This document shows, piece by piece, positions 12,668 through 60,850 of a stretch of DNA of 64,000 nucleotides. Position 1 is the first letter of the stretch. The number at the start of each line of letters is the position of its first letter. A program made the position numbers and the translations under genes. The DNA is taken from positions 23,392-87,391 of the forward strand of contig CALWLN010000126.1 of NCBI GenBank assembly GCA_944381535.1, written 5' to 3'. The DNA comes from an uncultured Lachnospiraceae bacterium (GTDB lineage: Bacteria > Bacillota > Clostridia > Lachnospirales > Lachnospiraceae). The notes under the pieces were generated by a model. That model had not been told where the DNA came from, did not search any database, and worked only from the letters and a program-made list of their open reading frames with translations.

Positions 12668-14975
12668 TGCACACGTTCTCCTTATCTTCTAATAAGCTCC
12701 ACTCTTTTTGATATGTAAGGCTCAAGGTATGATCTTCATGAAACTGAATCGGCAGCCAGATATAAGAGCAACGCTCAAAATTCTCTGTATTATGCCTCTC
12801 TGCCATGTGAATATAAAATTCTTCTCTATCCTCTACCTTGAAAATATAAGTACTCTGGGAACGGAACGTCAAATGCTCCTCATCCCCGATACAAGGATCT
12901 CCCATATCTTCCCAAGGACCAAACAGATTTGTCGCTCTGAAATACTTAGCCTGATTGAATGCCCAGGATGTCAGATCCGAAGTAATCATAAAATAATACC
13001 CGTCATGGTAGACTACTGTAGCAGCCTCCCTCCAGAAAGCCACATCCACTCTACGATATTCCGAAGTAAATGACAAATAATCATCACTCAGCTTCACAAT
13101 GTATTGACAGCGATCCTTTCCAACCTGTCTGTCATAGATAAAGTAGGCACTTCCGTCTCTGTCCTGGTAAACGGTACAATCTCTGACCAATCCATTGTCA
13201 TCAACAGGTCTGGAGTACCCCAGCCACCGATAGTTACCATTCACCGTTTCACATACAGCAACACCTGCTTCCGCAGTTCCGAGAGTATCTCCATGGTCTC
13301 CAGGATATTTCACATAATGGCACCATAACACATATTGCTTCGTATTCTTGTTATAAATAATTTTCGGACGTTCAAAACGCATCGGTGCGTAAAGCTGACT
13401 CTCAGGATCATAAGAGCAACACAAAATGGTTCCTTCATATTCCCAGTTATATAAATCCGTGGACGCATACATCACCACCCCCTGTGTTGTGGTCTGCCCG
13501 CCTTTCCCGTTCTTAGCAACTGGCAGAGGGCGCAAAGCCATGCCATACCAGTGGTACACACCATCCACATAGAGAATACCTCCGTCACTAGCATTGATAA
13601 TATTCCCATCCGTATCCCGCCACGTTACGAATTCCGTTAGTTCACCGTTGATAAAGCTATGTCTTTCCGCGTTTGCCCTCTTCAGTACCAATACCCAGTC
13701 GTTTGCCTCCCCTTTTCTGGCTGCCGGACTGGCCATCCATTTATCAATTCCTTTCAATGTGGTAATATAGCTGTATGTACCATCCTGCGGATTCATCCAC
13801 CATGCGTCCATAGGAATGTCACGATATCTTGACAAATTTAATTTGAATTCATCTCCACTATAATCATAACAAAACACGTAATCTTTCCCTGTAAAAACAG
13901 CGATTCTATGATAGCGTTCCTTCTGCCCAAAACAAAGGATGGAATCATCCGGTCTTCCGTTCATAAAATCCACGCTCTCCATTAATTCCTTCAGATATTT
14001 GAGCTGAGCGGAACCCGGATGATGAATCGCATCTTTCCAGGTCTCACGAACTCCATATGCACCACCTTCCCTGTTATCATGAAATTGCATAATACTATTG
14101 TTTCCATAAGTATGCCCGGCAGCACCTGCAAAAACAGACCAGTATGCGTAGCGGCGGATATCCCATTCTTCCCAATAAGGATTACGTGGGTTATGCAGTC
14201 CCTGTGGAATCCCTTCATAAGAAGGCTCTCCATCTAATGTAGGTTTCTGCCGTATATAGCCATGATCACGTTCTACATATTTCCAGTTATCCTCTCCGAA
14301 ATAAATTTCTTTCGCTTCGTTATCATCCCATTCTCCAAGATGTTCCTGATCATATCTCCGATGTCCGGACTGAAACATATTAATGTCCAGCCAATCCATT
14401 TCATGAAACCAGCGGGATGATGAGGTCCTTCCGAATGGATGGTATGCGATCAACCGCTCCGGATTATAAGATTTCAAGATTTCCGCCTCCCGGCAAAAAA
14501 CATCAAAGGCAACATCTCCTCGAACATCTCCCCCTAGAATCCAGATTAGATTCTTCCGCTTCTGAAAACGTTCCCCCAGAAACCTGGCATAAGTCTCTAT
14601 ATTGTCCATATTCAAAATACCACTTTTCACTAGAGAACCCCATGCCGGCAAAAGCCCAATGTATAATCCCATCTCTTCCGCAATCTGCAACACTTTATCT
14701 ACAAAGTACCAATATTCTTTCTTTGTAACATCCTTGATCTCGGTGTCCTGAGAAGGCTCTGCTTTTTTGTCCGGCAATTTGTGAACCAGAACCGTTAGGA
14801 TAATATTATATCCTTTTTCCTTCCGGTTTCTAAAATATATCCTTATATCCTTCTCATTCAATTTCTGCAACATCAGCCATGCAGTATCTCCAAGCCAGAA
14901 GAATGGCCTATCACCTTCCATGAGATATCTTCCATTTTCGCTCACATGCAAGTGATTCTTTTTCCAGTCTATCAT
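12660..14975 (-). CDS. GH140-like (apiosidase-type) and GH43-like bifunctional hydrolase
   Basis: The protein has 771 residues and no signal peptide. Residues about 1-345 are a DUF4038/GH140-type TIM barrel (RPFFWLGDTAWLM; LIWILGGDVRGD; LDINMFQSGHRRYD; TLDGEPSYE). Candidate catalytic residues are Asp197 and Glu250. A small beta domain (about 350-430) follows, as in that family. Residues about 440-765 are a GH43-type five-bladed propeller (NASDGGILYVDGVYHWYG; APMRFERPKIIYN). Family knowledge: the Bacteroides GH140 apiosidase cuts the apiose linkage that holds RG-II side chains to the backbone. Joining it with a GH43 suggests two linked cleavage steps. ATG at 14975 has GGAGG at six bases. It is the first gene after the regulatory element at 15084-15132, so it probably heads the left operon. 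Confidence 0.8.
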   Translation of the reverse strand: MIDWKKNHLHVSENGRYLMEGDRPFFWLGDTAWLMLQKLNEKDIRIYFRNRKEKGYNIILTVLVHKLPDKKAEPSQDTEIKDVTKKEYWYFVDKVLQIAEEMGLYIGLLPAWGSLVKSGILNMDNIETYARFLGERFQKRKNLIWILGGDVRGDVAFDVFCREAEILKSYNPERLIAYHPFGRTSSSRWFHEMDWLDINMFQSGHRRYDQEHLGEWDDNEAKEIYFGEDNWKYVERDHGYIRQKPTLDGEPSYEGIPQGLHNPRNPYWEEWDIRRYAYWSVFAGAAGHTYGNNSIMQFHDNREGGAYGVRETWKDAIHHPGSAQLKYLKELMESVDFMNGRPDDSILCFGQKERYHRIAVFTGKDYVFCYDYSGDEFKLNLSRYRDIPMDAWWMNPQDGTYSYITTLKGIDKWMASPAARKGEANDWVLVLKRANAERHSFINGELTEFVTWRDTDGNIINASDGGILYVDGVYHWYGMALRPLPVAKNGKGGQTTTQGVVMYASTDLYNWEYEGTILCCSYDPESQLYAPMRFERPKIIYNKNTKQYVLWCHYVKYPGDHGDTLGTAEAGVAVCETVNGNYRWLGYSRPVDDNGLVRDCTVYQDRDGSAYFIYDRQVGKDRCQYIVKLSDDYLSFTSEYRRVDVAFWREAATVVYHDGYYFMITSDLTSWAFNQAKYFRATNLFGPWEDMGDPCIGDEEHLTFRSQSTYIFKVEDREEFYIHMAERHNTENFERCSYIWLPIQFHEDHTLSLTYQKEWSLLEDKENVCSE

Positions 14976-19489: not shown

Positions 19490-19500
19490 ATCAGTCCTCC

Positions 19501-20085: not shown

Positions 20086-20086
20086 A

Positions 20087-22408: not shown

Positions 22409-22419
22409 ATCCCTTATCC

Positions 22420-38257: not shown

Positions 38258-38273
38258 ACGTTCTCTCCTCTCA

Positions 38274-39266
38274 TCATTCCGGATTCCATCCATCTGTCCC
38301 CCCCAAAACCTTATGCTTTGTATACTCCTCTGCTTCCTGTCTAGTCATCTGACTGGAAAACACTGCTCTCCCCTTCCCTCCTATGGCAGCGCCTTCCCCG
38401 CCGGAGCAATATTCCGCAGAGAATATAGTCTGGTGAACTTCCGGCTTATTCCAATCGCTCCACCCCTCAACAGCAATATGTCTATCCATTTCGCAGCAAA
38501 GGAACACCGTTTTTGCATATTCTCTCCAGGGCCTTCCCAGAAAAACGCTCCCATTCTCACAACAAGGTTTTCCATCCTCCCCCACCTCACTTCTCAAATG
38601 ACAGCCAGAGAACACATAACCATATTTCTGTCCCTCTGGAGTAGATGCCGCAGTGATATATCCCCGTTTTCTCGATACAATCTCGCATTCTTCAAAGTAA
38701 GCCGTTGCGCTTCCGAATATGAAATCCACGCTGCCGCTGATATAGCATCGTCGAAAATAGTGCCTACCGTTAATGCGCGGCGCAAATTCCTTCGGGCCAC
38801 GAAAACCTCCAGGAATCCCCTCCTTTGGTGGAAGGGGGCCGGTAAAAATCGTATCCTGATATCCCAGAAATGCGCATTGATCAAATATCATGCGGTCACC
38901 ATCCGCATACAGGGCAAGTGCCTGTCCAACCGGTCCCGCCGAATTCTCAAACACAATATTTCTGGCCGTAAAATCATTTGCATCCACAAACACCGTATAA
39001 GAGCGAAATGTTCCATATGTCTCCCCGTTCTCCATAAGCTTTCCGGCATAATCGTCCCAAGTAATAACAACCCGGCCCAATCCTATGATTGTCAGATGCG
39101 AGTGCTTAATCTCAAGTTTTTCCCGGTAAACGCCTTCCCGCACCACAATCGTAATCGGTTCTTCCGTCTGATTCCGTATCGATTGTAGAGCCTCTGAGAT
39201 TGACCGATATTCCACATCGCCATGTATCCCTTTTTTCAATTTTGAAACATATAATGTCATTCCCAT
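38274..39266 (-). CDS. CE8 pectin methylesterase, cytoplasmic
   Basis: The protein has 330 residues. The beta-helix shows the CE8 catalytic set: Gln115 (GPVGQALAL), Gln137-Asp138 (YQDTIF), Asp181 (DFIFG) and Arg245 (GRPWR). It removes methyl groups from galacturonate, yielding methanol. There is no signal peptide, so it would act on imported methylated oligogalacturonides ahead of the GH28 enzyme. The start is ATG at 39266 with AAGGAG ten bases upstream; the open frame extends further but without support. The tandem arrangement with GH28 is a clear functional pair. Confidence 0.94.
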   Translation of the reverse strand: MGMTLYVSKLKKGIHGDVEYRSISEALQSIRNQTEEPITIVVREGVYREKLEIKHSHLTIIGLGRVVITWDDYAGKLMENGETYGTFRSYTVFVDANDFTARNIVFENSAGPVGQALALYADGDRMIFDQCAFLGYQDTIFTGPLPPKEGIPGGFRGPKEFAPRINGRHYFRRCYISGSVDFIFGSATAYFEECEIVSRKRGYITAASTPEGQKYGYVFSGCHLRSEVGEDGKPCCENGSVFLGRPWREYAKTVFLCCEMDRHIAVEGWSDWNKPEVHQTIFSAEYCSGGEGAAIGGKGRAVFSSQMTRQEAEEYTKHKVLGGTDGWNPE

Positions 39267-39298
39267 ACGCTTAGGACTCCTTTTCAAACAGTTATTAT

Positions 39299-41386
39299 TT
39301 ATCGAAGCTCCTCCCAATAATAAAATTTCAGGGCGCTGCTCATTACCTGGGCTGTAATCCAAGAAGGGTTCCACACTTGCATGCCGCCTCTATACCGATC
39401 CAGATATTTAAGAATCGTTGGATACCGGGTCTGAAAATAGTTCGTATGATAATAATGCTCTCCCTGTTCTCCGGTTACCGTATAGCCCCATTCTCCTTTT
39501 TGAGTTGCCAATCCGTAAGTCAATGCATTACTCACATGACGTGCCATTTCCATCAATCTTTCATTTCCACAGATTTTTCCAAAATGATACAGTTCATAAG
39601 TAGGAAAAAACACATCCAGATGATGATTTTGCACGCTGACTCCCGGCCAACCGGTAGTTTGGAAATGATGTTCCGCGCAGATAGTACCAGGACGAAAACC
39701 GGTATTCCAGTGAAACACAAAAGTAAGAATCCAGTCTGCCGCCAGTTCAGCCCATTCCCGATAACATTTCGAACCTGTCATTTCATAGAGTTTGGCTGCT
39801 GTTGTAAAGAAAAAAATCCCCGCTTCCTTGTCCTCACATCTGGCATCCATAGTAGCGTGCGCAAAGGGGATTTCAAACGTATCCATATGATACGCTGCAT
39901 AAAGCCGATATTTTTCCTCCGCATATTCCAGATACCTTTTTTCCTCAAAATATTCTGCTGCTTTTACCAATGCCAGCACGCAAGGCATCCCTCCAGCATT
40001 TATCTCCATGCTATCTGCAATCCCATCCAATGTCCAGGCTAACGGATAAATACCGGCATTCGTCTGCCGCAAAGAATCCATTAAAAAGGCGCAGGCTCTT
40101 CTCACCGTATTCTCCCATGCCTCCGGCACCTGTATTCCATTTTCCTTCAGCAACAGCATAACCTCCAGGCAATCAGTAATGCTTTCTCCCTGTATTCTAG
40201 ATGAAAGAGTTGCATTGGCATCACTCCACGCTCCCCGAAATTCATCCGCCTCAATCATGTAATAACCTCTCATCAGCCCACTGACTTCACTCTCTGCATG
40301 TTGCAAAAAGAAGTCTGTAACCTGTATTCCCTGTGTCAAACGGTATTTATCCGACGTCTTAAGCCCCAACATACAGCTGCACCATGCGAGCCGGATAGCC
40401 TGTCCCGTCCAACCATACAGGAAATATTCGGGACGTCCGGAAATATTTCCAAAGGGATTGCAAGCGCCAAAGGTTAGATATCCTGCACACTTCTCATTCT
40501 TGAAAAAACGGCTATCCAACACTCTTTTTTTATAGTCAATCATTTCTTCTAAGGAATGCAAGGCTTTTGTCTGCGGTTTCAAGAGCCGATATCCCATATC
40601 CGTCAAATTTCGAAAACCTCTGCCCTCCTGCTTACAGCAATCCCAGCTCAGATAAAAAGTTTTTTTCAGGCAGTCCTTCGTTCTCAGGGTTCGATACCCT
40701 TTCATATAGGGGAGAGGCGTACATCTACCTCCATAGAATACATCCTTCATCCCATTAAACATCAACACTCCACTGGCAGATACTATCCGATATCCCACAT
40801 CTTTCAGTACTCCAAGTGACCAGTAGTCCTCATCCTCCCCATTAATTATATGGGGCATCGACAACAATGTCAGACTTTGATATTCCTCTCCCTTTTGCCA
40901 CTCAATGTTGACTGCAGGAATAGGCAATCTATGTTCCTCAACAATAATTCCTTCTCCTGGCACAGAACCAATATGCGGAACAATTCTCTCGGGATCTGCG
41001 GAAGGATTATCGTTGTAAATCATATGCGGTATTGTAACCTTCTGCTTCTGATGTTCGCAGCCAGGCAGTGTTATCCCCCCTGCAAATACCTCCAATTCTT
41101 CTCCAATATTTACAAAACATACGGAAATCTTCAACTCTGACAGGCAGATAGAGAAACACACTTTTAAACGAACTTGTTTGTCTGTAAGAATCATTTCACA
41201 CCTATCTGATGCGTCGTTCATTTCTATTTTATCATTGAAATCCATAGTCCATTTATGGGATTCCAGCCTCCAAGGGCTCCCCGTACTGTACCAGAACAGT
41301 TTCCTTACATCCAATTCATAGACTGGTCTATCGCCTAATAATAATATTATCCGGCTCCCATCAATTCTTACAACATGCTTCTGCAT
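39299..41386 (-). CDS. uncharacterised alpha/alpha-barrel protein, probable glycosidase
   Basis: The protein has 695 residues and no signal peptide. Residues about 1-260 are beta-rich, and about 270-690 are a series of paired helices with many aromatic residues (FLYGWTGQAIRLAW; MRGYYMIEADEFRGAW; MDARCEDKEAGIFFFTTAAKLYEMTG; HHFQTTGWPGVSVQNHHLDVF). This resembles six-hairpin glycosidases. I do not recognise the family. Its position between PdxA2 and the methylesterase points to a pectic substrate. ATG at 41386 with GGAGG six bases upstream is preferred. That start lies inside the end of the pdxA2-like gene (26-base overlap). An uncleaved-uronyl hydrolase function cannot be excluded. Confidence 0.65.
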   Translation of the reverse strand: MQKHVVRIDGSRIILLLGDRPVYELDVRKLFWYSTGSPWRLESHKWTMDFNDKIEMNDASDRCEMILTDKQVRLKVCFSICLSELKISVCFVNIGEELEVFAGGITLPGCEHQKQKVTIPHMIYNDNPSADPERIVPHIGSVPGEGIIVEEHRLPIPAVNIEWQKGEEYQSLTLLSMPHIINGEDEDYWSLGVLKDVGYRIVSASGVLMFNGMKDVFYGGRCTPLPYMKGYRTLRTKDCLKKTFYLSWDCCKQEGRGFRNLTDMGYRLLKPQTKALHSLEEMIDYKKRVLDSRFFKNEKCAGYLTFGACNPFGNISGRPEYFLYGWTGQAIRLAWCSCMLGLKTSDKYRLTQGIQVTDFFLQHAESEVSGLMRGYYMIEADEFRGAWSDANATLSSRIQGESITDCLEVMLLLKENGIQVPEAWENTVRRACAFLMDSLRQTNAGIYPLAWTLDGIADSMEINAGGMPCVLALVKAAEYFEEKRYLEYAEEKYRLYAAYHMDTFEIPFAHATMDARCEDKEAGIFFFTTAAKLYEMTGSKCYREWAELAADWILTFVFHWNTGFRPGTICAEHHFQTTGWPGVSVQNHHLDVFFPTYELYHFGKICGNERLMEMARHVSNALTYGLATQKGEWGYTVTGEQGEHYYHTNYFQTRYPTILKYLDRYRGGMQVWNPSWITAQVMSSALKFYYWEELR

Positions 41387-42431
41387 TCTCTTCCTCCACG
41401 CAATTTTTTTTGCTTCCCCTGGCAAAGCGGATGGCATAGTCTATGGCATTCATCAAGCTGCATTCGCTGGCGGTGCCTTTTCCCGCCTGATCGTATGCGG
41501 TTCCGTGATCGACTGAAGTGCGGATAATCGGCAACCCCAGAGTGATGTTCACACCTTCAACGGCATCCCATTTTCCTTCCTTCTGATTATACACGAAGCC
41601 CACCAACTTCAGGGGAATATGGCCTTGATCATGATACATCGCTACTACAATATCATACATTCCACCTCTTGCTTTAGAAAAAATACTGTCTGGCGGAATA
41701 GGACCCTCCACCAGAATACCCGCTGCCTTAGCTTCTGCAACTGCAGGCATAATTTCATCCAGTTCTTCCCTGCCAAACAATCCGTTCTCCCCGCAGTGGG
41801 GGTTCAGCCCGGCCACACCAATCCGCGGTCTTTGGATCCCCATATCCAGGCACGCCCGATCCGCAATGCGGATGACCTCCAGGATCCGTTCCTTCTTCAC
41901 GCGTTCACAGGCTTCCCGTAAGGATACGTGAGTCGATACATGCACCACCCTCAGATTCTGGTGGACCAACATCATCGTATACTTCTGCGTTCCCGTGAGG
42001 CGGGCATAGATCTCAGTATGCCCGGCGTAACAATGTCCCGCCAGATTCATGGCTTCCTTATTCAGGGCATTAGTTACCGTGGCATGCACCTTCCCTGCCA
42101 TGGCGAGAGCGATCACCTTCTCTACATACCGGAAGGCAGCCTCGCCGCCGACAACGCTCACCTCGCCGATCGGTAGCGTCTTAGCATCCGCGATATGCAT
42201 GTCCAGAACATCAACAACCCCGGGCGCGTAGATTCCCTCCCGAGGTTCCTTCACCACATGAAATTCCGGCACCACACCCACTGCTTTCACGGCAGCTTCC
42301 AAAATGTTCATATCTCCCACCACCAGGGGCCTGCACCGGTCATAAATCTCAGAGTGCGCCAGGGCTTTCAGTGTAATCTCCGGTCCGATGCCGGCAGGGT
42401 CTCCCATAGTGATTCCAAGTATCGGCCTCAT
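41361..42431 (-). CDS. pdxA2: PdxA2-type 4-phospho-D-threonate (tetronate) dehydrogenase
   Basis: The protein has 356 residues. It begins PILGITMGDPAGIGPEI, the PdxA family signature. Metal ligands are visible at His138 (GHTE), His212 (NPHCGENG) and His267 (MYHDQGHIPLK). Family knowledge: PdxA makes vitamin B6 precursors, while the PdxA2 branch oxidises and decarboxylates 4-phospho-D-threonate or 4-phospho-D-erythronate to DHAP. The four-carbon acid kinase at 49160 in the same operon supports the PdxA2 role. The start overlaps the stop of the aldolase gene by four bases. Base composition by eye is more GC-rich than the flanking hydrolase genes, shared with the next two genes. Confidence 0.87.
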   Translation of the reverse strand: MRPILGITMGDPAGIGPEITLKALAHSEIYDRCRPLVVGDMNILEAAVKAVGVVPEFHVVKEPREGIYAPGVVDVLDMHIADAKTLPIGEVSVVGGEAAFRYVEKVIALAMAGKVHATVTNALNKEAMNLAGHCYAGHTEIYARLTGTQKYTMMLVHQNLRVVHVSTHVSLREACERVKKERILEVIRIADRACLDMGIQRPRIGVAGLNPHCGENGLFGREELDEIMPAVAEAKAAGILVEGPIPPDSIFSKARGGMYDIVVAMYHDQGHIPLKLVGFVYNQKEGKWDAVEGVNITLGLPIIRTSVDHGTAYDQAGKGTASECSLMNAIDYAIRFARGSKKNCVEEENAEACCKN

Positions 42432-43327
42432 CGCATCCCCAACCTTTCATTTTCCTCAAGCACTTTCGAAATCGCGCGGATTCCTTCCTCCGGCAAGTAA
42501 TCAAAGGGCTTTCTGCACGCTCCAACCGGATATCCCATAAGTCTCACCGCTGTTTTGACCACCGTCTGGGAATTGCCATACTTCATGCAGCCCCTGAGGG
42601 AGCGGATCGCGTCCTGGCATCTTCTGGCCTCCTCCAATCTGCCCTCTACAAAATACCCATAGATATTCCTCAGGTTTTCCGGATATACATTGGCGCATCC
42701 CGCAACGGCCCCCGTGCCACCCGCCAGCAGGTTCCACAATATCAGCGAATCATTTCCCGATAGGACCGCAAAATCCCTGTCCCTAGTCCGCTCAATATAT
42801 TGAAGCATATTATCAAAATTTCCGCTGGAATCCTTTACTCCCGCAATCCCCTCCAATTCCGAAAGCCTTTCGACAGTCTCCGGTGCCAGGGCATTCCCCG
42901 TTCTTGCCGGGATATTGTACAGTACAATGGGAATTTCCGCCGCCGCGGCCACCGCTTTGTAATGTTCGTATAACTCCTGCTGGGACGCCTGTGCAAAGGA
43001 CGGGGTGATGATACTCAGAACGTCCGCCCCCATGTCCTGGGCCCGCTTTGAGAGGCGGATCGTATCCTTCGTGCTGATACAGCCCGTGCCGGCATAGACA
43101 GGAACCTTCCCCTTGGCCTCCTCGATCACCACAGACAGCACCCGCTCCTTCTCCTCTTCCCCAAGGATATAGCCCTCTCCGGTGGTCCCAAAGGGGAAGA
43201 CCCCATGCACTCCGGCGGCGATCTGGCGTTTCACACAGTTTCGCAGTTCCTCCTCATTCACCGATTCGTCCTCTCTCATGGGGGTGATGATCGGCGTAAT
43301 GATTCCTCTGATCTTCTCTTTATACAT
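42428..43327 (-). CDS. DapA/NanA-superfamily pyruvate aldolase
   Basis: The protein has 299 residues. The class I aldolase core is complete: GTTGE (47-51), Tyr137 (LYNIPART) and the Schiff-base Lys165 (GVKDSSG). The superfamily includes dihydrodipicolinate synthase, N-acetylneuraminate lyase and 2-keto-3-deoxy sugar-acid aldolases. In a pectin locus next to an iron alcohol dehydrogenase and PdxA2, cleavage of a 2-keto-3-deoxy acid to pyruvate plus an aldehyde is the likely reaction. Lysine synthesis is unlikely here. ATG at 43327 has GGAG seven bases upstream. The frame remains open further upstream without a ribosome-binding site. GC-rich by eye compared with neighbours. Confidence 0.87.
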   Translation of the reverse strand: MYKEKIRGIITPIITPMREDESVNEEELRNCVKRQIAAGVHGVFPFGTTGEGYILGEEEKERVLSVVIEEAKGKVPVYAGTGCISTKDTIRLSKRAQDMGADVLSIITPSFAQASQQELYEHYKAVAAAAEIPIVLYNIPARTGNALAPETVERLSELEGIAGVKDSSGNFDNMLQYIERTRDRDFAVLSGNDSLILWNLLAGGTGAVAGCANVYPENLRNIYGYFVEGRLEEARRCQDAIRSLRGCMKYGNSQTVVKTAVRLMGYPVGACRKPFDYLPEEGIRAISKVLEENERLGMR

Positions 43328-43418
43328 TCTACATCTCCATTCTGCAGGCAGGTTCTTTCTCTTCCCGGATATCCGCCCCGCCTGCCCCTTCGGACATCCG
43401 GTCTTTCGGGCCAGGCTC

Positions 43419-44582
43419 CTACGACAGAAGTCCCTTATAGATACCGGCAATTTCTTCTTTTGTGAGGGGGCGGGGATTCTGGTCCAGCAGCCGCCGCACC
43501 TGCATGGCATTCTCCGTCAGCACATCCACATCCTCTTCCCTGAGGCCATATGGCCTTAGGCTTGTGGGAATCCCCAGACGTTTGCACAGGTCTGCTATGT
43601 ATTCCACAAAGCGCTCCGGCTTCTCCTCTTCTCCCAAGTTCCCCTCCGGCAGCATAATATCCGCCAGCTTCCTGTATTCTTCTCTGCAGGAGGGCAGATT
43701 GGTCTCCAGCACCCTCGGAAGCAGAATCGCATTGGATACCCCATGAGGAATATGATACTTTCCTCCCAAGTGATAGGACAACGCATGCACAGCAACCGTC
43801 GTGGAGGAAGCGAGGCACACGCCCGCCAGGAAGGAACCAAGCAGCATATTCTCCCTTGCCCCCATATCCGACCCATCCACATATGCATTCTCAATATTCG
43901 CGGCAATCAGCGCTGCGGCACTACAGGAAAATATCCTGCTGACAGGATTCGCCTTCTTGGACAAAAAAGACTCTACCGCATGACACAACGCATCCAAACC
44001 CGTAGAAGCCGTCAGAGTTGCAGGAAGGCCTTTTGTCAGAACAGGGTCTAAAATCACATAATTAGCCACAAATTGCGGTGAAATCACCCCCACTTTTAAT
44101 TCTTGTTCCGGAACCAAAAATATTGCGTTCGGTGTAGCTTCCGCGCCCGTTCCGGCAGTTGTCGGAATCATGACCGTAGGAAGAGACGCTTTCTTTATCA
44201 GAGAAGTTTCCCAGAAGCCACTCTCTGCAAATTCGTTGTTCGTAATTGCTGCCGCCACCACTTTTGCCATGTCCATGATACTGCCTCCGCCTATGGCTAT
44301 CAGAAGATTCCCATTTTTTTCAGCAACGTTTTTATAAACATCACGTATGCTGTCGCGTGTGGGTTCTATCGGTAAATCTGCGATTATACCAGCCAGCTTC
44401 GTACCGAGCCATCGCAGAAGCTGTTGTATTTCCTCAGCCTCGCCCAAGGCACCGTCCAGCAATACTACCACCTTGTCAGCATCTTTTTCCAGTAATATGT
44501 CTTTCACCTTGCCAAGGCTTCCCTGACCCGCAAACAGTGTACCAGGAAAACCCGCCATATAATTGTTTACAAGCTCATTCAC
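43419..44582 (-). CDS. iron-containing (group III) alcohol dehydrogenase
   Basis: The protein has 387 residues. The NAD-binding motif is GGGSIMD (98-104), and the metal ligands are Asp197, His201 (GLDALCHAVES), His266 and His280 (IPHGVSNAILLP). The family reduces aldehydes or oxidises alcohols with NAD(P). Just upstream of the aldolase gene, it could reduce the aldehyde that the aldolase releases. The start is GTG at 44582, with AGAAGGA about six bases upstream. The last codons of the gene lie 91 bases before the aldolase start, and that gap holds only GC-rich sequence with a weak GGCAGG/CCTGCC pairing. 1,3-propanediol or lactaldehyde reductase roles remain possible. Confidence 0.87.
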   Translation of the reverse strand: MNELVNNYMAGFPGTLFAGQGSLGKVKDILLEKDADKVVVLLDGALGEAEEIQQLLRWLGTKLAGIIADLPIEPTRDSIRDVYKNVAEKNGNLLIAIGGGSIMDMAKVVAAAITNNEFAESGFWETSLIKKASLPTVMIPTTAGTGAEATPNAIFLVPEQELKVGVISPQFVANYVILDPVLTKGLPATLTASTGLDALCHAVESFLSKKANPVSRIFSCSAAALIAANIENAYVDGSDMGARENMLLGSFLAGVCLASSTTVAVHALSYHLGGKYHIPHGVSNAILLPRVLETNLPSCREEYRKLADIMLPEGNLGEEEKPERFVEYIADLCKRLGIPTSLRPYGLREEDVDVLTENAMQVRRLLDQNPRPLTKEEIAGIYKGLLS

Positions 44583-44625
44583 AATACATCCTTCTTTCTA
44601 AATAATTAAAAATCCAATACGCGAA

Positions 44626-46806
44626 TTACAGCTTAATGTACAATACATCCCCAAAATTAGTCTCATATTCCCTCTCATCGTCAACACAGACATGTAGTCT
44701 CTTTCCATTCTCAGCTTGCTCTGAACAAGTAATATCCAGCTTATGTCCTCGAATCTGAAGCTGCGTCAGCCTCCACCAACTCAAATGGGTTGCAAGAGGT
44801 TCTATTTTCACACACTCTTCCTCAACTGTAACCCCGGCCACAAAACGCACCACAATATCCAGCCAAAAAGAATGATTATAGTCCACTTCATCACTAAGCC
44901 GCTCTCCGCTAATAGGATTATAATGCTCTACCAGATAGGGTCTTCGCCAATCTTTATCCCTAAAATGTTCCCCGGTATATTCCGTAAGCAGTTCATCAAA
45001 GTGACTATCAAATATGTGCCCCCGTTTTTGGCTTTCCAGGCCCAACGCTTCCAACGCAATTCCTGTTGTATAAGGCCAGGAAGGGCCACACCAGACACAT
45101 CCGTTCCTTCCTTTAAAATAATTCCCTTTCCAGCCTCCATCTGGCGAAAATACCGGACAATCCTTTGAAACAGTGGAAAAACCTGATCCTGTATGAAACG
45201 CTTCCCTATCTATCAATGGCAAAATACCGTCATTGTGCTCTTCTTGCGTCATCTGCGCCCAAAACGGATAGATTCCCACAATATTACGCACCATAGCTTT
45301 TTCATCCGTCTCATAATGAAGATCATAAAAATATCCGGTCTCTGAATCCCACATTTTTTCAAGAATATCTTTCTTCACTCGTTGCGCCTTATCTAGGTAA
45401 ATCTTTTCCTTCTCTTTTCCCAATACACGCATAATATTTGATAACGCCATAAGATTCAAATAATGATATGCACTGCGATCCACCCTTTTTAGCGGAGTAA
45501 AGTATGTTTTATCCTTTGGATTATCCGGATAACGCCCCAATTCCAGAAAACCTTTGAAATACCAGTAGCTGGGCTGATACTCTTTGCCAGTCAGTGCATG
45601 CGTTCTTTCAATCAACAAGCCATCCTTGTCATTTCCATAGCATTTTTCATGACCAGAAATATAACGTTCCATGGCAGGCAACAGTCCTTCCAAAAAATGT
45701 TTATCTCCCTCTACCAGATAATGCTGCCAGATTGCATATATCATATAATTGGCATAAGACTTTTGTTCTCCTTCCACATAAGCGCTTAATATCAGGCCAT
45801 CCTCATCCTGCGCAGCAAATGCAGACTGAATAATCTCTTTTGTTATTTTATGAAAAGGATGCCAGCGCAAATCTGTCACCTGCAATGGTGTAGACAGAGG
45901 AATCAGCTTACTGAATTCCCAACCATAGGGCGAAAGAGGTGTCTTCCGCATACGATGATCCCTGCCCTCATACATTACGGTTCCCTGAAATCTCCCCATT
46001 TGAGGACGGCACATGCTGTTCTTCAGAATATACCAGCGATATTTCCAGCACGCATTCATTGCACGGTCGTCACATATAAACCGGGGAGCTGCTTCATAAA
46101 ATTTCCGGTTATCCGCAAGCAATTCTTCGAATGCAGCTTGCGCGCCTCTCTTCTGGGCATTTTCAAGAAAGTATACGGTTCTGCTTGATAATTCGTCTAT
46201 GTTTTCGCTCATATCACCCATAAGATTTCCGACTGCACTTGCTACATATAATGTCACACATTCTTTTGGCCGCACAATAAGTTCTTGTACAGACCAGTTC
46301 CAGTATGTGGCAATTCCTATGCGTATCCCAAACCGCAGTTCTCCACTCTCTTTTAAAATTCCTGCATACGTCTCTGAACTGCCTATTGTCTGAGCATCAA
46401 AAATTGCATTCTCTGAATCCGTAAACCCCTCCGGCTGGGAACGCAGCGCCAGTCTAAGATTCTTATCCGATTTATTTTCCCAGCACATAAGACTAACCGC
46501 AATATCCTGCGCCACAATAGTCTTACGTTCCCGAAAGCTTATTTTCTCCGATTCGTATGACATCGTCATATAAGTCGGATACCACATTACATCCATCTCA
46601 TCCCATAATAGTCTTTCGCTACATTCCACTGTAAAAAGTTCTGTAATGTTCATTTTATGAATAAAATCGATACATCCCCTGAATCCTGGTTGCGGATCCA
46701 ATATATCCACTGCCAGGCGGTCCCCACAAGGGCCAAACAGTAACTTCCCTTCTCTCGTCCTCAAACAACGTTTATCATAAAAAAGCTCTTCATTCCAACT
46801 ATTCAC
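44626..46806 (-). CDS. MGH1/GH63-like alpha/alpha-barrel glycoside hydrolase
   Basis: The protein has 726 residues and no signal peptide. Residues about 1-240 form an N-terminal beta-sandwich, and about 250-650 a six-hairpin barrel. Stretches such as RVDRSAYHYLNLMALSNIM, KMWDSETGYFYDLHY and WCGPSWPYTTGIALEAL are typical of MGH1-like and GH63 enzymes. A short C-terminal beta domain ends the protein. The related enzymes remove alpha-linked glucose or mannosyl groups; the substrate here is open. The start is GTG at 46806 with AGGAGG five bases upstream. It follows the FGE/BNR/MORN fusion gene by nine bases, so they are co-transcribed. Confidence 0.75.
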   Translation of the reverse strand: MNSWNEELFYDKRCLRTREGKLLFGPCGDRLAVDILDPQPGFRGCIDFIHKMNITELFTVECSERLLWDEMDVMWYPTYMTMSYESEKISFRERKTIVAQDIAVSLMCWENKSDKNLRLALRSQPEGFTDSENAIFDAQTIGSSETYAGILKESGELRFGIRIGIATYWNWSVQELIVRPKECVTLYVASAVGNLMGDMSENIDELSSRTVYFLENAQKRGAQAAFEELLADNRKFYEAAPRFICDDRAMNACWKYRWYILKNSMCRPQMGRFQGTVMYEGRDHRMRKTPLSPYGWEFSKLIPLSTPLQVTDLRWHPFHKITKEIIQSAFAAQDEDGLILSAYVEGEQKSYANYMIYAIWQHYLVEGDKHFLEGLLPAMERYISGHEKCYGNDKDGLLIERTHALTGKEYQPSYWYFKGFLELGRYPDNPKDKTYFTPLKRVDRSAYHYLNLMALSNIMRVLGKEKEKIYLDKAQRVKKDILEKMWDSETGYFYDLHYETDEKAMVRNIVGIYPFWAQMTQEEHNDGILPLIDREAFHTGSGFSTVSKDCPVFSPDGGWKGNYFKGRNGCVWCGPSWPYTTGIALEALGLESQKRGHIFDSHFDELLTEYTGEHFRDKDWRRPYLVEHYNPISGERLSDEVDYNHSFWLDIVVRFVAGVTVEEECVKIEPLATHLSWWRLTQLQIRGHKLDITCSEQAENGKRLHVCVDDEREYETNFGDVLYIKL

Positions 46807-46815
46807 TTGAACCTC

Positions 46816-49131
46816 CTATCTTTCCAGTAAAGAAACATCTTCATTTATCTTGCCATGGCGGAAAATATTCCTTGCTGTCACTTTCCCTTCTCTGTCATAG
46901 CAAATTGCCTCGCCATCCACATGACGATTGTAAAAGGTTGCACATGTTTTCACACAGTCTGTACCCGGCCAAAAAGTCTCATATTTTTCCACCAGATCAC
47001 CATTTTCTCCTTCCGAACATGTAAATCGCTTCAGCAGCGTACCATCCGGATGATAATAAACATAATTGCCAATCTTTTTGCCTAAAGAATACTCTGCCTG
47101 CCAACATACCTTGCCATCGGGATACCAGAATGTTTCCGGTCCATCCAAAAGAAATCGTCCGTCATCAGCTATCCCTCCATAATATCGGCATTTTAAACTT
47201 CCATCCTTATAATATTCCCGATATTCCTTTCTTGGAGTCACCAGTCTGGACGCCTTTGAACACATTAATTCCGCTTCTGAAGGCTCCTCGTCCTCCTCAT
47301 CCAACAGCCATGCCTCATTGAAGGCAAGATGTAAAAGCGGATGCACATTGCTACACACCACATGAATCAGTCCATCCGGGCCCTGTTTCATGACACTGTA
47401 TCCGATGGTTCCACCTCCGTTGAATACCTCCGGCGCTTTCTTGCGTGGCTGTGTACCCCAGAGTTTTTTAAAGTGCCAGCTTGCACCTTCATCCTCCGAC
47501 CATGCAACATAACTGCCCAATTTATTCTTCATTTCTGCAGGCGTTCTATTCTTCTTATTCTGATAGTCTCCACACATTACAAGTCTTCCTGACGCAAGTC
47601 TGAGAACGCTTGGTCTTTGGCCCGAATTCAAGGCTGGAAAGCATGTTTTGAAAACATGATAAGTATCTCCTCCATCCGCAGTCACTGCCGCAGGCATATA
47701 ACCATCAATATCCGTATTCTTACCTCCCAATGCTAAAATACGTCCATCTTTCAGTTCCACAGCAGTCGTATGTCTACCAGCAGTCTTTCCTGCCGGATTT
47801 TCCCAAGTTTTTTTGCCGTCTCTGCTCCTCCATAATACGGAGCAGGAGCCAAGTACCTGAATGCCCGTATCATCGGTTTTAGGATTCACATTAGAATCCG
47901 ATACCAGATAAAAGGTCCCATCTGAAGCATCTATGCAACTATTGACGGGTTGTGGACATACCTCGTCCACGTGGTTGGTAAATAACGGAAACTGTACTTC
48001 GCTCCATGTCTCTCCATTATCATGAGATTCCACATATTGAAATGGATAAGTATCATCTAACTGTGGCCATCCCCAGAAGTGATATATCGTTCCATCTTTT
48101 CCTGTGTGAAACATCGGTGCATGGTCATTGACCCCGACCGGATTTAAAAACACATCCGGGAATCCCCATTGATCCTCTCCTACGCGGAACCTACAGCCTA
48201 CCAGCCCTGATTGCGCATCATATTCATGATATGTGGAATAAACAGAATATAATAAATCTCCATTGGGTGCTACCGTAAATCCAGGGGAATGATGATGGTG
48301 CCGGAAAAGATCCGGAAATCCTACGGAACGGATTTCCAGAGCCGTACAATTGTCTGGCGGAACCGGAAACAGGTACCTCTTCCTAAAATAAGGCTTATCC
48401 TGTAATGGTGCTTCTTTTTTATATTCCTCCGTCTGTTGGCGTACGCCCTCACTCAGAAAATACGGGAGGGTATAACCTTCTGGTCTTGGTTCCGGTCCAT
48501 TGACTACCCGGAAGCCAATAAGATGTCTCCCAAAAGAATTATTTACATCCGCCTTTTTATGACAGTAATTGGAAGGCATCGCGCAACGATACCACGGATC
48601 TGCCGGATATTCATTGTACTTTTCGGGATTATCAAGCCATCCGCCGCGAACACAGCGGAAAACTCCGTTTTTCGGCCCTGCTGGATCGCACACTTCATCA
48701 TCTGTATAAGGGGCATAATAATCGAAGCACCACTCCCGAATATGCGGATCGCACATTCGGTCGATTGGAATTTCCTTTCTGCACCTTGCCGCATACTCCC
48801 ACTGCGCCTCCGTTGGCAAAAAATATGGTTTTTTCTCTTTTTGGGATAACCATCTCGTATACTCTTCTGCTTCCTCCCAGCTAACGCTTTGCAAATAACC
48901 ATTCCATGAATCCAGGTCGTCTACATAATCTATCCCTTTGTATTCTCTGCGGAATATCTTAAACTGTTCCAGTGTGACCGGCTCCTGTGCAATATAATAA
49001 CTCTGCGAAAAAGTCACTTTGTGTACCGGCAATGCATCCGGATTACGCAGAGCACTACCACCTCCCATCCGAAATGTTGTTGCCTCTACTTTTAACATTC
49101 TCATTCCTTGACTGTTTATAAAAGCATCCAT
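46816..49131 (-). CDS. three-part fusion: FGE-sulfatase-modifying-like + BNR/sialidase propeller + MORN/YwqK-like repeats
   Basis: The protein has 771 residues and no signal peptide. Residues about 10-212 are a formylglycine-generating-enzyme-like domain (LPTEAQWEYAARCR; RCVRGGWLDNPEKY; GRHLIGFRVV). Residues about 265-640 carry sialidase/BNR-type blades (ESHDNGETWSEVQF; WRSRDGKKTWENPAG; AWSEDEGASWHFKKLWG). Residues about 655-765 hold MORN-like repeats (YKDGSLKCRYYGG; WYPDGKVCWQAEYSLGKKIG; YHPDGTLLKRFT). The FGE-like part may be a structural or binding domain here, since no sulfatase gene accompanies it. The propeller may release an acidic sugar. I know no characterised protein with this combination. 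ATG at 49131 has GAGG upstream. Confidence 0.8.
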   Translation of the reverse strand: MDAFINSQGMRMLKVEATTFRMGGGSALRNPDALPVHKVTFSQSYYIAQEPVTLEQFKIFRREYKGIDYVDDLDSWNGYLQSVSWEEAEEYTRWLSQKEKKPYFLPTEAQWEYAARCRKEIPIDRMCDPHIREWCFDYYAPYTDDEVCDPAGPKNGVFRCVRGGWLDNPEKYNEYPADPWYRCAMPSNYCHKKADVNNSFGRHLIGFRVVNGPEPRPEGYTLPYFLSEGVRQQTEEYKKEAPLQDKPYFRKRYLFPVPPDNCTALEIRSVGFPDLFRHHHHSPGFTVAPNGDLLYSVYSTYHEYDAQSGLVGCRFRVGEDQWGFPDVFLNPVGVNDHAPMFHTGKDGTIYHFWGWPQLDDTYPFQYVESHDNGETWSEVQFPLFTNHVDEVCPQPVNSCIDASDGTFYLVSDSNVNPKTDDTGIQVLGSCSVLWRSRDGKKTWENPAGKTAGRHTTAVELKDGRILALGGKNTDIDGYMPAAVTADGGDTYHVFKTCFPALNSGQRPSVLRLASGRLVMCGDYQNKKNRTPAEMKNKLGSYVAWSEDEGASWHFKKLWGTQPRKKAPEVFNGGGTIGYSVMKQGPDGLIHVVCSNVHPLLHLAFNEAWLLDEEDEEPSEAELMCSKASRLVTPRKEYREYYKDGSLKCRYYGGIADDGRFLLDGPETFWYPDGKVCWQAEYSLGKKIGNYVYYHPDGTLLKRFTCSEGENGDLVEKYETFWPGTDCVKTCATFYNRHVDGEAICYDREGKVTARNIFRHGKINEDVSLLER

Positions 49132-49159
49132 AATTTTTCCTCACTTTCGCTAAATTCCT

Positions 49160-50440
49160 TTACAGTAACATATCAGCCAAATCCACCAAGAGTGTCTCTT
49201 TACCAAATCCCCCGGATTTTGATAACAATTTTACCGTTTTTCCATCCTTTATAAATTCAGAACACACAACCCCGCTCAGAACCTCACATACTGGCGCAAG
49301 TTCCTGTACATTTAATTTTCTAAGGAGACCTTTAACGGTGTCGCCACCGACTACTAACAACGTTGTCTGCTCCATATTATGTAACAGCTCGCATACTAGC
49401 ATACCTAGGATATCCACAATACTGTTCCTTATGTAATCCTTATTTCTACCATTTTCTTTCGCATACTCCATAATGCTTTTTTCTTCCGGAACATCATTGG
49501 CATCCAAAATTACCTTATGATTATCCATAAAAACCTTTTTCCATTCCTTTAAAACGTTAAGGCCTTTTTCAGATTTCCAGTAATTTCTATGCATCTGTTC
49601 TTTTTTAATCTGCAATCGCACAAACCCATTCTGTATTGCGTAATCCAGTTGCTGTCCTGTGATAGGATTAATACTTCCTATCACAGCCAAAAAGTGCTTT
49701 TTCTTCTGCATTTTCATATCCTGCCCCGTGTGAATCTTTGATACCTGACACTGTAATGCCTGCGATAAAGCTGCCGCAAATCCGGCACATCCTGCTAGTA
49801 AAGTCACACAGTCTTTATTCTTCTGCGCAACAATTGTTGTTGCTATCCTGTCAAGTTCCTCTTCACTGGAAGCATCATACAGTCGAATCCGTTTTTCATT
49901 ATCCAGATCGGACTCCGTATCCGTTCCTTCCATCAAGCCGCCATCTCTTTCCACCAGAACCTTGCTTTGCTCGTGAATAATATCCGGGATGTAAGAGCAT
50001 CTGACCGGCTCATATGGTTCTGAACCAAATACGCTATTCGCTACTGGTACGTTATCAACATAATGGATACCTAATTTTGTAATTCTTCCCATCTGTGGAA
50101 AAGCCGGGGCATAATGAATCACATCCTGCCCTGCTCCATCCAGTACCGCCTGCAGTTCAAAGCCGATATTTCCTCGTTGAGCCGAATCTGTCTTTTTATA
50201 TATGTAGTCTATACCACTTTTACAGGCATCAAGTACGATGTTTTTCACGGTTTCATATGCATTCTCACCGCTCATTCTTCTAGTCTCAGCGTCCAAAATC
50301 AGCACCTGATTATCACCACACATATATTCCTTCCATTTTTGTCCATTAACAATCACTCTTGACGGCATACCTTTCGCAACAAATTGCACTCCCGTATCCA
50401 ACCCTCCGGTTAAGTCATCCGCTATTACTAACAATTTCAT
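49160..50440 (-). CDS. four-carbon acid sugar kinase (DUF1537; DtnK/OtnK/DenK type)
   Basis: The protein has 426 residues. The N-terminal domain starts MKLLVIADDLTGGLDTGVQF with paired Asp residues. The C-terminal nucleotide-binding domain shows VVGGDTVKGLL and SGGFGKETLL. Family knowledge: these kinases phosphorylate D-threonate, L-threonate, D-erythronate or 3-keto-acids at C4. Coupled with PdxA2 (rather than LtnD/OtnI/OtnC), D-threonate or D-erythronate is the expected substrate. It is the first gene downstream of regulatory element B, 68 bases from that element's proximal block, and divergent from the regulator gene. It is AT-rich, unlike its metabolic partners at 41.4-44.6 kb. Confidence 0.87.
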   Translation of the reverse strand: MKLLVIADDLTGGLDTGVQFVAKGMPSRVIVNGQKWKEYMCGDNQVLILDAETRRMSGENAYETVKNIVLDACKSGIDYIYKKTDSAQRGNIGFELQAVLDGAGQDVIHYAPAFPQMGRITKLGIHYVDNVPVANSVFGSEPYEPVRCSYIPDIIHEQSKVLVERDGGLMEGTDTESDLDNEKRIRLYDASSEEELDRIATTIVAQKNKDCVTLLAGCAGFAAALSQALQCQVSKIHTGQDMKMQKKKHFLAVIGSINPITGQQLDYAIQNGFVRLQIKKEQMHRNYWKSEKGLNVLKEWKKVFMDNHKVILDANDVPEEKSIMEYAKENGRNKDYIRNSIVDILGMLVCELLHNMEQTTLLVVGGDTVKGLLRKLNVQELAPVCEVLSGVVCSEFIKDGKTVKLLSKSGGFGKETLLVDLADMLL

Positions 50441-50561: not shown

Positions 50562-50589
50562 TTGACTTTTAACTATGTTGTGTTAAAAT
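50562..50589 (+). promoter_or_regulatory. sigma-70-type promoter of the PrpR-like regulator
   Basis: TTGACT (50562-50567) and TAAAAT (50584-50589) are spaced by 16 bases. This gives a short 5' leader ahead of the ribosome-binding site CGGAGG and the ATG at 50618. The ATG at 50588 overlaps the -10 box, which is a further reason to reject that earlier start. Operator copy B abuts the -35 box, which suggests autoregulation. Confidence 0.65.
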
Positions 50590-50617
50590 GATAATAAAAA
50601 AACGGAGGGCTTTATTC

Positions 50618-52411
50618 ATGGGCATTAGAAAAACTCGTATTTTGGGCATTGTTCCTTATAAAACCATGAAGCCAGCCATGGAAAAACTGGCGGAAAAACG
50701 AGACGATATTACGCTAGAAATATATGTAGGTGACTTAAAGGAAGGCGTTGACATTGTTAGAAATTTGCGAATTGAGAACTATGATGTCATTATTTCCAGA
50801 GGTGGTACCGCCCAACTTATTGAACAGAATACGACTATCCCGGTAATTGAAATCAATATCTCTGTTTATGATATTATGCGCGCCATCAAACTTGCAGATA
50901 ATTATCGTGGCAAGTATGCTATTGTTGGTTTCAAAAGCATAACAAAAAGCGCAAGTCTTCTTTGTGATTTATTACAATATCACGTTCCGATTTACACAAT
51001 TCAAAATTCAGAAGAGGCACAATCCCTGCTAAAAAAACTAAAAGAGGAGGGTTTCCAACTCGTACTGTGTGATATGGTCACAAACAACACTGCCAGAAAT
51101 CTGGAGATGAATGCCATCCTGATCACCTCCGGTTCCGAGAGTATTCAGGACGCTTTTGCACAAGCAGTCAAAACCCACAGAATGATATTTCAATTAGAAG
51201 AGAAGCAAATGTTACTGGACAGTCTGTTGCAGCATCCCAGAGTGCATACAGCGGTATTTCAGTTAGATGGCACACTTTCATACTGCTCTGCGGATATCCA
51301 TTACAATACGGAACTGTTGGATATCCTATCCAACGAGTGTCCTTCTGCCGCCAGCTGTGATGATTATAAGTTTTTTACAAGCCACAATGACATGCTCTAC
51401 TCCGTGGAAAGTAAAAAGCTTCACATTAATCACCAGCAATACATTGCCTTCTACCTGACCGGTAATCATATCTCTGCCCTTAAAACCAAACATGGAATCT
51501 CTTTCCGTAATCTAAAGGATGTGGAAACCACTTTATTTGATAGCTTTTATGGCATAATCCCGCTTTCAAAGGAATTGGAATCTCTCATTTCCTCCTACGC
51601 GGAAAGCTCCTATCCGGTTATGATACTGGGCGAACATGGCACACGAAAGAAGTTTTTTGCCGGCTTGATTTATACTCAAAGCATTATGAGTAACCATCCT
51701 TATGTTCTGATTGACTGTGCTAGAATTAATGACAAGGAATGGAACTTCCTCATCAATCATTATAATTCACCGCTGAACGATAAGGAAAATACTTTATTCT
51801 TTAATAACATTAATAATCTGCCTGAAGAAAACCTTCAGAAGCTGCTGTCCATTATTTTGGAGCAAAAGCTGCACAAAAACAACAGATTGATTTTTTCCTG
51901 TTCTACTACTCCACGTACAGCTCTGCCCTACATAATTAACAAATTTACTAACGATTTATCCTGTCTGGTATTGAATACGCCCCCGCTTCGCGAGAATATA
52001 GCTGATATTCCTACATTTTCCTGCCTATATCTTAACTCGCTGAATGTGGCATTATCCAAACAGATCATTGGTTTTCAGCCGGATGCAATGGACCTGCTAC
52101 AGCAATATCCATGGCCAAACAATTACACTCAATTTAAACGGGTGCTCCGGGAACTTGCCGTCCTCACTGAAACACCTTATATTCAAGCCAGTCAGGTAGA
52201 ACAGATTCTCTCCATTGAAGTCTACTGCAATACAATAGAACCTCCGGTTTCCTCACCTGCGTTCTCTCCCAGCGGTTCTCTTGAGGAGATTACGCAGAGC
52301 ATAATCCGCAGGACCGTTGACGAAATGGGTGGTAATCAAAGCGCAGCAGCAAAAAAGCTACAAATCAGTCGTACCACACTTTGGCGATATTTAAAGCAGC
52401 CCCCGGAATGA
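50618..52411 (+). CDS. PrpR-N sensor regulator with degenerate sigma-54-activator AAA+ domain and Fis-type HTH
   Basis: The protein has 597 residues. Residues about 1-195 are a PrpR N-terminal sensor domain (TRILGIVPYKTM; IISRGGTAQLIE; VPVIEI-like strand). A PAS-like middle (about 210-300) follows. Residues about 315-545 keep the outline of a sigma-54 activator (PPLRENIADIP; YPWPNNYTQFKRVLREL). However, Walker A is altered (GEHGTRKK), Walker B reads LFFNNI with Asn in place of Asp/Glu, and no GAFTGA loop is visible. A C-terminal Fis-type helix-turn-helix is intact (GGNQSAAAKKLQISRTTLWRYL). It probably works as an ordinary DNA-binding switch rather than a sigma-54 activator. ATG at 50618 has GGAGG nine bases upstream. 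It is divergent from the enzyme operon. Confidence 0.85.
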   Translation: MGIRKTRILGIVPYKTMKPAMEKLAEKRDDITLEIYVGDLKEGVDIVRNLRIENYDVIISRGGTAQLIEQNTTIPVIEINISVYDIMRAIKLADNYRGKYAIVGFKSITKSASLLCDLLQYHVPIYTIQNSEEAQSLLKKLKEEGFQLVLCDMVTNNTARNLEMNAILITSGSESIQDAFAQAVKTHRMIFQLEEKQMLLDSLLQHPRVHTAVFQLDGTLSYCSADIHYNTELLDILSNECPSAASCDDYKFFTSHNDMLYSVESKKLHINHQQYIAFYLTGNHISALKTKHGISFRNLKDVETTLFDSFYGIIPLSKELESLISSYAESSYPVMILGEHGTRKKFFAGLIYTQSIMSNHPYVLIDCARINDKEWNFLINHYNSPLNDKENTLFFNNINNLPEENLQKLLSIILEQKLHKNNRLIFSCSTTPRTALPYIINKFTNDLSCLVLNTPPLRENIADIPTFSCLYLNSLNVALSKQIIGFQPDAMDLLQQYPWPNNYTQFKRVLRELAVLTETPYIQASQVEQILSIEVYCNTIEPPVSSPAFSPSGSLEEITQSIIRRTVDEMGGNQSAAAKKLQISRTTLWRYLKQPPE

Positions 52412-59700: not shown

Positions 59701-59776
59701 TCGGTTTCTGGAACTGTTTCACCATCGTCCTTTTTATCTTCTCCATTGTCTTTTTTCTACCATGCCTATAATTCAT
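56745..59776 (-). pseudogene. GH106-like alpha-L-rhamnosidase gene broken by an amber codon and a frameshift
   Basis: Three consecutive open segments (58466-59776, 57848-58468 region, 56745-57845) together make one protein of about 1000 residues. The N-terminal part has the GH106-like opening FPFWSWNDRIKPEMVKEQ, then GMGGFFIHARDGLETEY and YDENRWPSG. The first break is an in-frame TAG at 58466-58468, where relatives would carry Trp (NSA-stop-FEKNP), a one-base change. The second break is in an 8-base TC/GA run at 57852-57859: removing one GA unit restores the reading through CERIGMVFFVVNN. The C-terminal part has a galactose-binding-like beta domain. The start near 59776 overlaps the BNR gene stop. 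Sequencing error cannot be excluded for either break. Confidence 0.85.
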
Positions 59777-60794: not shown

Positions 60795-60850
60795 TTTTTC
60801 CTCCCTTTTGAAATTTATTATATCTATAAGTGCATATACACCTATATTCC

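Follow-up and report, generated by a model that had tools for sequence, protein, structure and literature searches.

Introduction

We consider here a 64,000-nucleotide stretch of DNA (called 'the window' throughout; positions 23392-87391 of contig C126 in genome G000) from the 4.3 Mb genome of an uncultured Lachnospiraceae bacterium. On its minus strand, between 41361 and 50440, a run of genes codes for a PdxA-type dehydrogenase, a DapA-type aldolase, an iron-containing alcohol dehydrogenase (ADH) and a DUF1537 kinase; a 'module' that we read, with a probability of roughly 0.75, as a breakdown route for 3-deoxy-D-lyxo-heptulosarate (Dha), a rare sugar of rhamnogalacturonan II (RG-II). The reading draws upon gene content and order, recurrence, linkage, the residue pattern of the aldolase and stereochemical fit.

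Several described systems lie close to this module. In the catabolism of D-threonate, DtnK and PdxA2 reportedly (Zhang et al. 2016) turn D-threonate into dihydroxyacetone phosphate (DHAP); the kinase and dehydrogenase families are the same, encoded by adjacent or nearby genes, but our module adds an aldolase and an iron ADH, so that D-threonate would come from a seven-carbon (C7) sugar diacid. The six-carbon (C6) aldarate route takes keto-deoxy-glucarate to pyruvate and tartronate semialdehyde, then to glycerate, by means of an aldolase, a reductase and glycerate kinase. It shares the logic of an aldolase yielding pyruvate and an aldehyde acid, followed by reductase and kinase, whereas the Dha route would be one carbon longer and is built from different enzyme families (DapA-type, iron ADH, DUF1537 plus PdxA). 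A further likeness is to BT_1020 of Bacteroides thetaiotaomicron (PDB: 5mqr), whose N-terminal half we take to be a glycoside hydrolase (GH) family 143 Dha hydrolase and whose C-terminal half we take to be a GH142 beta-L-arabinofuranosidase that uncaps Dha, as the name of the Pfam family PF24067 supports. The two halves match, respectively, a propeller gene found near the module in relatives and the GH142-like gene of our run; here, however, they are separate genes, with the propeller half missing from the window genome. A module of these four genes is not known to us from B. thetaiotaomicron.

As summarised in the literature, side chain D of RG-II is a disaccharide in which beta-1,5-Araf caps Dha (PMC12282258), Dha and 3-deoxy-D-manno-octulosonate (Kdo) occur in plants only in RG-II, with Dha standards being hard to obtain (a 2025 review, PMC12168206), GH142 and GH143 co-occur with GH137-139 and are linked to RG-II debranching (PMC7922503), and DtnK is a D-threonate kinase (PMC10971088). 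Among the matches listed from the open-licence literature, no title or abstract start describes Dha catabolism. The proposed route is a new pathway made from known enzyme families; if true, it would close a gap in the use of pectin by gut microbes, offer four enzyme activities that can be tested directly and supply genes by which users of RG-II might be recognised, while its aldolase might be run in reverse to make scarce Dha.

The gene run and the proposed pathway

All four genes named in the original prediction are present on the minus strand between these coordinates, and in the same run as the pectin genes. Reading in the direction of transcription, we see a DtnK-like DUF1537 kinase (SBD_N and NBD_C domains; 49160..50440), a 771-amino-acid protein with an FGE-like N-terminal domain, a BNR sialidase-fold domain and a weak MORN-like match (46816..49131; 'FGE-BNR'), a GH142-like glycosidase (44626..46806), the iron ADH (43419..44582; PF00465/PF25137), the DapA-family aldolase (42428..43327; PF00701, 261 bits), the PdxA2-like dehydrogenase (41361..42431; PF04166, 350 bits), and then a 712-amino-acid protein, a pectinesterase and a GH28 enzyme. 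From kinase to aldolase the genes are separated by 28, 9, 43 and 91 bases, and aldolase and PdxA overlap by 4 bases with the aldolase start as chosen; the mechanical open reading frame (ORF) of the aldolase extends to 43510, overlapping the dehydrogenase gene, and the Pfam match begins at its residue 67. The prediction had passed over the FGE-BNR and GH142-like genes, the two that matter most.

The GH142-like protein (726 amino acids), in the form of a five-sequence profile (A1), finds its best PDB match in residues 823-1099 of 5mqr_A (E 4.9e-23), the C-terminal part of a chain of 1108 amino acids, and is predicted from this homology to be of GH142 type. As a proposed beta-L-arabinofuranosidase it would open the route by taking off the terminal L-arabinose that caps Dha in side chain D; a sialidase-fold enzyme would then free Dha, a role that probably falls to FGE-BNR here (which might instead release another RG-II ulosonic acid) and to a BT_1020-like propeller in some relatives. 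The aldolase would break the C3-C4 bond of Dha, yielding pyruvate and an aldehyde acid of four carbons (C4), the iron ADH would reduce this aldehyde to D-threonate, the kinase would convert D-threonate to D-threonate 4-phosphate, and PdxA2 would oxidise and decarboxylate the latter to DHAP. Every catalytic step here is one that we infer.

The stereochemistry is consistent with such a sequence. Converting Fischer projections to Cahn-Ingold-Prelog descriptors gives Dha as 4R,5R,6S; cleavage at C3-C4 followed by reduction at C4 yields 2S,3R, which is D-threonate, and neither L-threonate nor D-erythronate. Our calculation thus reproduces the product that the original prediction had drawn.

Active-site residues of the aldolase

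DapA (4-hydroxy-tetrahydrodipicolinate synthase) is of the same family as the module aldolase, and works with a C4 aldehyde-acid partner: according to PMC4977564, its substrate aspartate semialdehyde, a C4 aldehyde, is bound by Arg138, with Tyr107, Tyr133 and Thr44 forming the relay, and its pyruvate site also binds alpha-ketopimelate, a C7 2-oxo-diacid. Dha is, by our own comparison, a trihydroxy derivative of alpha-ketopimelate. We aligned 31 distinct module aldolases, including that of the window, with DapA, NanA and YagE of Escherichia coli and the three other DapA-family proteins of the genome. K161 (the Schiff-base lysine of DapA), Y133, T44 and R138 are kept in all 31; F107/A108 stand, again in 31/31, where DapA has Y107/N108. 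Other families contribute 11 module aldolases, and in these too R138, Y133 and K161 are invariant. Judged from these residues, the active site would suit a product that is a C4 aldehyde acid. In a tree built from 42 module sequences and 13 others, the labels need to change twice, where 500 shuffles gave a mean of 12 changes, and long branches are flagged; a single origin of the module aldolases is neither shown nor excluded by it.

Position 138 also bears upon two other assignments. The first would divide the genes between unrelated routes: an aldolase of the 2-keto-3-deoxy-gluconate (KDG)/galactonate type for pectin uronates, with the ADH acting on glyceraldehyde, alongside a separate D-threonate kinase and dehydrogenase. 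GH28 and pectinesterase lie in the locus, a UxaA-type ORF is found at the window edge, and DapA-family aldolases of KDG type do exist (YagE); but position 138 is Leu in both YagE and NanA (and Cys in the genome's own NanA-like paralogue), against Arg in every module aldolase, and the repeated finding of all four genes together (see below) also speaks against a division that we regard as quite improbable. The second would make the enzyme a Kdo aldolase, yielding pyruvate and D-arabinose from RG-II side chain C. RG-II has Kdo as its second ulosonic acid, as set out in PMC12282258, and sialidase-fold genes are present; D-arabinose, however, has no carboxylate for the invariant R138 to hold, and we would expect such a route to leave kinase and PdxA2 with no substrate, making this assignment very improbable indeed.

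A housekeeping role, with the aldolase serving lysine synthesis as DapA and PdxA serving vitamin B6, was rejected on residues and context, and we give it next to no credence. Both proteins do pass the cut-offs of the general models (TIGR00674 for the aldolase, TIGR00557 for PdxA), and this PdxA is the sole one of the genome. Against this, the module aldolase has lost Y107, two of the other DapA-family proteins, encoded elsewhere in the genome, carry the canonical DapA residues, and PdxA lies with a sugar-acid kinase in a pectin locus, a pairing that recurs.

Recurrence of the module

To place the Dha route in context, we turn to a family sample of 250 genomes, the window's own included, with nearly one genome per genus. 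Of these, 48/250 (again counting the window's) match the kinase with an E-value of 1e-20 or lower. From 39 of the 47 other genomes 40 kinase-anchored stretches were fetched, leaving out eight with weak kinase matches (G005, G038, G057, G091, G123, G128, G145 and G163). By an ORF rule, all four genes are found in 17 of the stretches, three of them in 5, and kinase and PdxA alone in 15, with just the kinase in 2 and just PdxA in 1; several stretches end at contig ends, and in L049 and L060 the kinase, forming one long ORF with a neighbour, went uncounted. Kinase and module-type aldolase occur together in at least 21 of the 249 other family genomes, a lower bound, since the fetched set leaves out the eight genomes whose kinase matches are weakest. 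Since the window genome has a single DUF1537 gene, a single PdxA and four DapA-family genes, and all four module genes recur in 17/40 stretches, the set is not a chance cluster.

The kinase combines PF07005 and PF17042, and its best NCBIfam model is that for D-threonate kinase (NF047819), as is also the case for the five further module kinases scanned. The PdxA family member paired with it scores 349 bits to the NCBIfam D-threonate 4-phosphate dehydrogenase model, under that model's cut-off of 583. In the iron ADH the metal-ligand positions (D/H/H/H) are conserved in 36/36 aligned rows, some of these being the same gene fetched twice.

Two arrangements can be distinguished. In 'type A' the order is regulator, kinase, iron ADH, aldolase and PdxA, plus a carrier: TRAP, CitMHS or 2HCT proteins in those scanned (L033, L034, L035, L043, L044 and L046) and ATP-binding cassette (ABC) transporters in others. 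A BNR protein of a 386-amino-acid type is present in 11 of the 18 aldolase-bearing type A stretches. 'Type B' genes are 28-31% (kinase), 43-44% (PdxA) and 50-53% (aldolase) identical to those of the window, and have as neighbours FGE-BNR, ABC/DUF1854 genes, a transporter, GH106, GH142-like, pectinesterase and 712-amino-acid protein genes; for G157 and G158 the joined stretch includes an apiosidase too.

The module extends beyond the family. A phylum sample of 398 genomes contains, apart from the window's, 13 that match the aldolase with an E-value of 1e-75 or lower; of the 12 loci fetched, 11 have kinase and PdxA beside the aldolase, and 8 the iron ADH also. Anchoring instead upon FGE-BNR gives 24 loci (at least 5 of them in genomes already counted in the family sample), of which 19 hold at least one module gene in the stretch and 8 hold all four; the closest isolate among them is Acetatifactor muris DSM 23669 (L109), with 71% identity in FGE-BNR and 78% in the aldolase. 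Module genes are lacking from the stretches of L126, L127, L128, L130 and L132 (3.3 kb), although a comparison of L126 with L164, whose contigs are equally long and in which one gene start coincides, places kinase, PdxA and aldolase some 11-15 kb beyond FGE-BNR.

Some of these loci carry further genes of interest. Beside FGE-BNR, L127 (12327-20536) encodes a fucose isomerase C-domain protein, an Asp/Glu racemase family protein, split transketolases and a transaldolase-family protein, and L126 (12330-20433) has genes of the same lengths, the scan having been made in L127; the set resembles an apiose route. Among loci from other families, L156 and L158 have a fumarate-reductase-like flavoprotein beside the module, and in L158 a TRAP-type carrier also stands beside the four genes.

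Linkage to RG-II markers

The original prediction had proposed a search for co-occurrence with RG-II genes; run here, this proved positive for GH140, GH142-like and BT_1020-like genes, with physical linkage in addition. The p-values that follow are guides, given that markers share genomes and relatedness is uncorrected. Seven other genomes have a GH142-like gene, and kinase and aldolase lie in one stretch in 6/7 of these vs 15/242 elsewhere (p 1.2e-6); counting any kinase match, the figures are 7/7 vs 40/242 (p 5.8e-6), the seventh genome being G220. For the PF24067 propeller, over cut-off in 11 genomes, we find kinase and aldolase in 6/11 vs 15/238 (p 6.1e-5) and a kinase match in 7/11 vs 40/238 (p 1.0e-3). 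With GH140 at the Pfam cut-off, kinase and aldolase are present in 10/36 vs 11/213 (p 1.3e-4), in 10/43 vs 11/206 when all matches are taken (p 7.2e-4), and in 8/21 vs 13/228 at 1e-50 (p 6.6e-5), a threshold set after the list was seen. FGE-BNR occurs in 5/249 other genomes, all five with the kinase (5/5 vs 42/244; p 2.0e-4).

The linkage is also physical. In two type A loci, L037 (G194) and L048 (G132), the four genes are followed by three genes of ABC-transporter type and then by a protein of 619 or 635 amino acids that matches PF24067 (E 7.8e-74 in L037, 1.2e-75 in L048); the L037 protein matches residues 19-595 of 5mqr_A at E 5.4e-103. In type B, relatives of this propeller protein (42-48% identity) are no more than some 13 kb away from module genes (L117-L123, L129, L131, L055 and L064), directly adjoining FGE-BNR in L117, L118 and L122. 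As the C-terminal match to 5mqr lies in the window and the N-terminal match near the module in relatives, genes matching both halves are neighbours of the module, in different genomes. Stereochemistry, marker co-occurrence, linkage and aldolase residues all support the Dha route first put forward in the original prediction, which we continue to infer.

A number of observations weigh against it. At least one of GH142-like, PF24067 and strong GH140 is present in 10 of the 21 genomes in which kinase and aldolase lie together; the other 11 have none of the three. These marker-free genomes may belong to scavengers of Dha, either free or in small glycosides, or perhaps a second substrate exists for the module. 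Conversely, four of the 11 propeller genomes (G008, G114, G199 and G236; G199 and G236 being 70 and 83% complete) have no kinase at E 1e-20, their DapA relatives are only 30-36% identical, and no module gene lies in the fetched stretch. In G220 the aldolase and iron ADH adjoin FGE-BNR, but the sole match to the kinase, at 25-28% identity, lies on a different contig. Around modules L156-L163, from other families, no relative of any glycosidase of the window is seen to a distance of about 10 kb, and L164-L166, from another family, have no iron ADH in the stretch. All six scanned kinases score 140-204 bits (202 for that of the window), under the curated D-threonate kinase cut-off of 450, and in the 11 aldolases from other families residue 107 is Phe in just 7 and Tyr in 4. 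Finally, the BT_1020-like propeller (PF24067) was not found in the window genome, where Dha release therefore rests on FGE-BNR, and the first arginine of the sialidase triad appears, by eye against the sialidase RIP motif, to be replaced by His in FGE-BNR.

Taken at face value, the marker-free genomes favour a module for some other substrate that ends up as a C4 acid, whether free D-threonate or a different 3-deoxy-2-heptulosarate, with the presence of the module in RG-II loci being partly hitch-hiking; L158 and L160, which have TRAP or dicarboxylate carriers and lie among the loci lacking glycosidase relatives nearby, point the same way. Free D-threonate, however, requires neither aldolase nor reductase, and the 15/40 stretches with kinase and PdxA alone would be its simple route; a different substrate also sits poorly with the linkage to genes matching both 5mqr halves, and we know of no other abundant natural heptulosarate. 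We consider this explanation unlikely, and retain Dha as the probable substrate.

In L164-L166, kinase, PdxA and aldolase come after relatives of the window's 712-amino-acid protein and of a 370-amino-acid protein without Pfam match (8801-9913); the relatives of the latter (46-49% identity) directly precede the three genes, and may stand in for a step in these loci, whose stretches lack the iron ADH.

Sialidase-fold proteins

The full FGE-BNR model, made from 6 sequences, is poor (predicted local distance difference test score, pLDDT, 43), whilst a model of the BNR domain alone (residues 240-639, 21 sequences) reaches pLDDT 81. With the latter, Foldseek returns GH33 sialidases and Kdnases, that is, the sialidase beta-propeller fold. 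A GH143 identity was looked for and not found: the protein has no PF24067 match and no 5mqr profile match at E 1, and 5mqr is absent from the best 50 of 463 Foldseek rows (E up to 0.001). As none of PF24067, the PDB profile and the listed Foldseek rows gives a GH143 match, we name FGE-BNR a sialidase-fold candidate only.

The BNR proteins of 386-amino-acid type, recurring inside type A operons (L032-L035, L039, L042-L047 and L049), are homologous to the sialidase domain of FGE-BNR (hhalign 99.6%). We tentatively suggest, at slightly less than even odds, that Dha is a shared gut currency: in several families of Bacillota the four-enzyme module would be carried both by bacteria that degrade RG-II and by scavengers that do not, with the FGE-BNR and 386-amino-acid-type BNR families releasing Dha.

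The surrounding locus

Divergent from the run, on the plus strand, lies a PrpR_N/AAA/Fis regulator (50588..52411), likely that of the module, followed by a gene of the rhamnosidase family; a relative of the regulator is annotated in 13/18 type A stretches with an aldolase. The GAFTGA motif is absent from this protein, rendering its sigma-54 dependence doubtful, and a sigma-54 promoter, sought by eye between kinase and regulator, was not seen.

The minus-strand run ends with the 712-amino-acid protein (39299..41437), the pectinesterase (38274-39374) and GH28 (36989-38293). The first of these has no Pfam and no PDB match, but is kept at 51-67% identity in six RG-II-type loci (G157, G158, G181, G220, G098 and A. 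muris); this conservation makes it a candidate for a new glycosidase family. Elsewhere in the window a GH140-type apiosidase fused to a GH43-type domain (12660..14975, minus strand) serves as an RG-II marker of the locus, which also encodes GH95, a GH106-like gene, GH2 and transporters, such that its predicted glycosidase set is like an RG-II repertoire. Adjoining the apiosidase gene is that for a 909-amino-acid protein without Pfam match (9938-12667). Further along (17294-22471), two exporter-type ABC transporter proteins flank a DUF1854 protein; in type B loci this trio stays together, close to FGE-BNR and to the module. Lastly, a 369-amino-acid BNR_2 protein (59766-60875; 251 bits), adjoining a GH106-like gene, is a candidate for hydrolysing a different RG-II acid, for instance Kdo.

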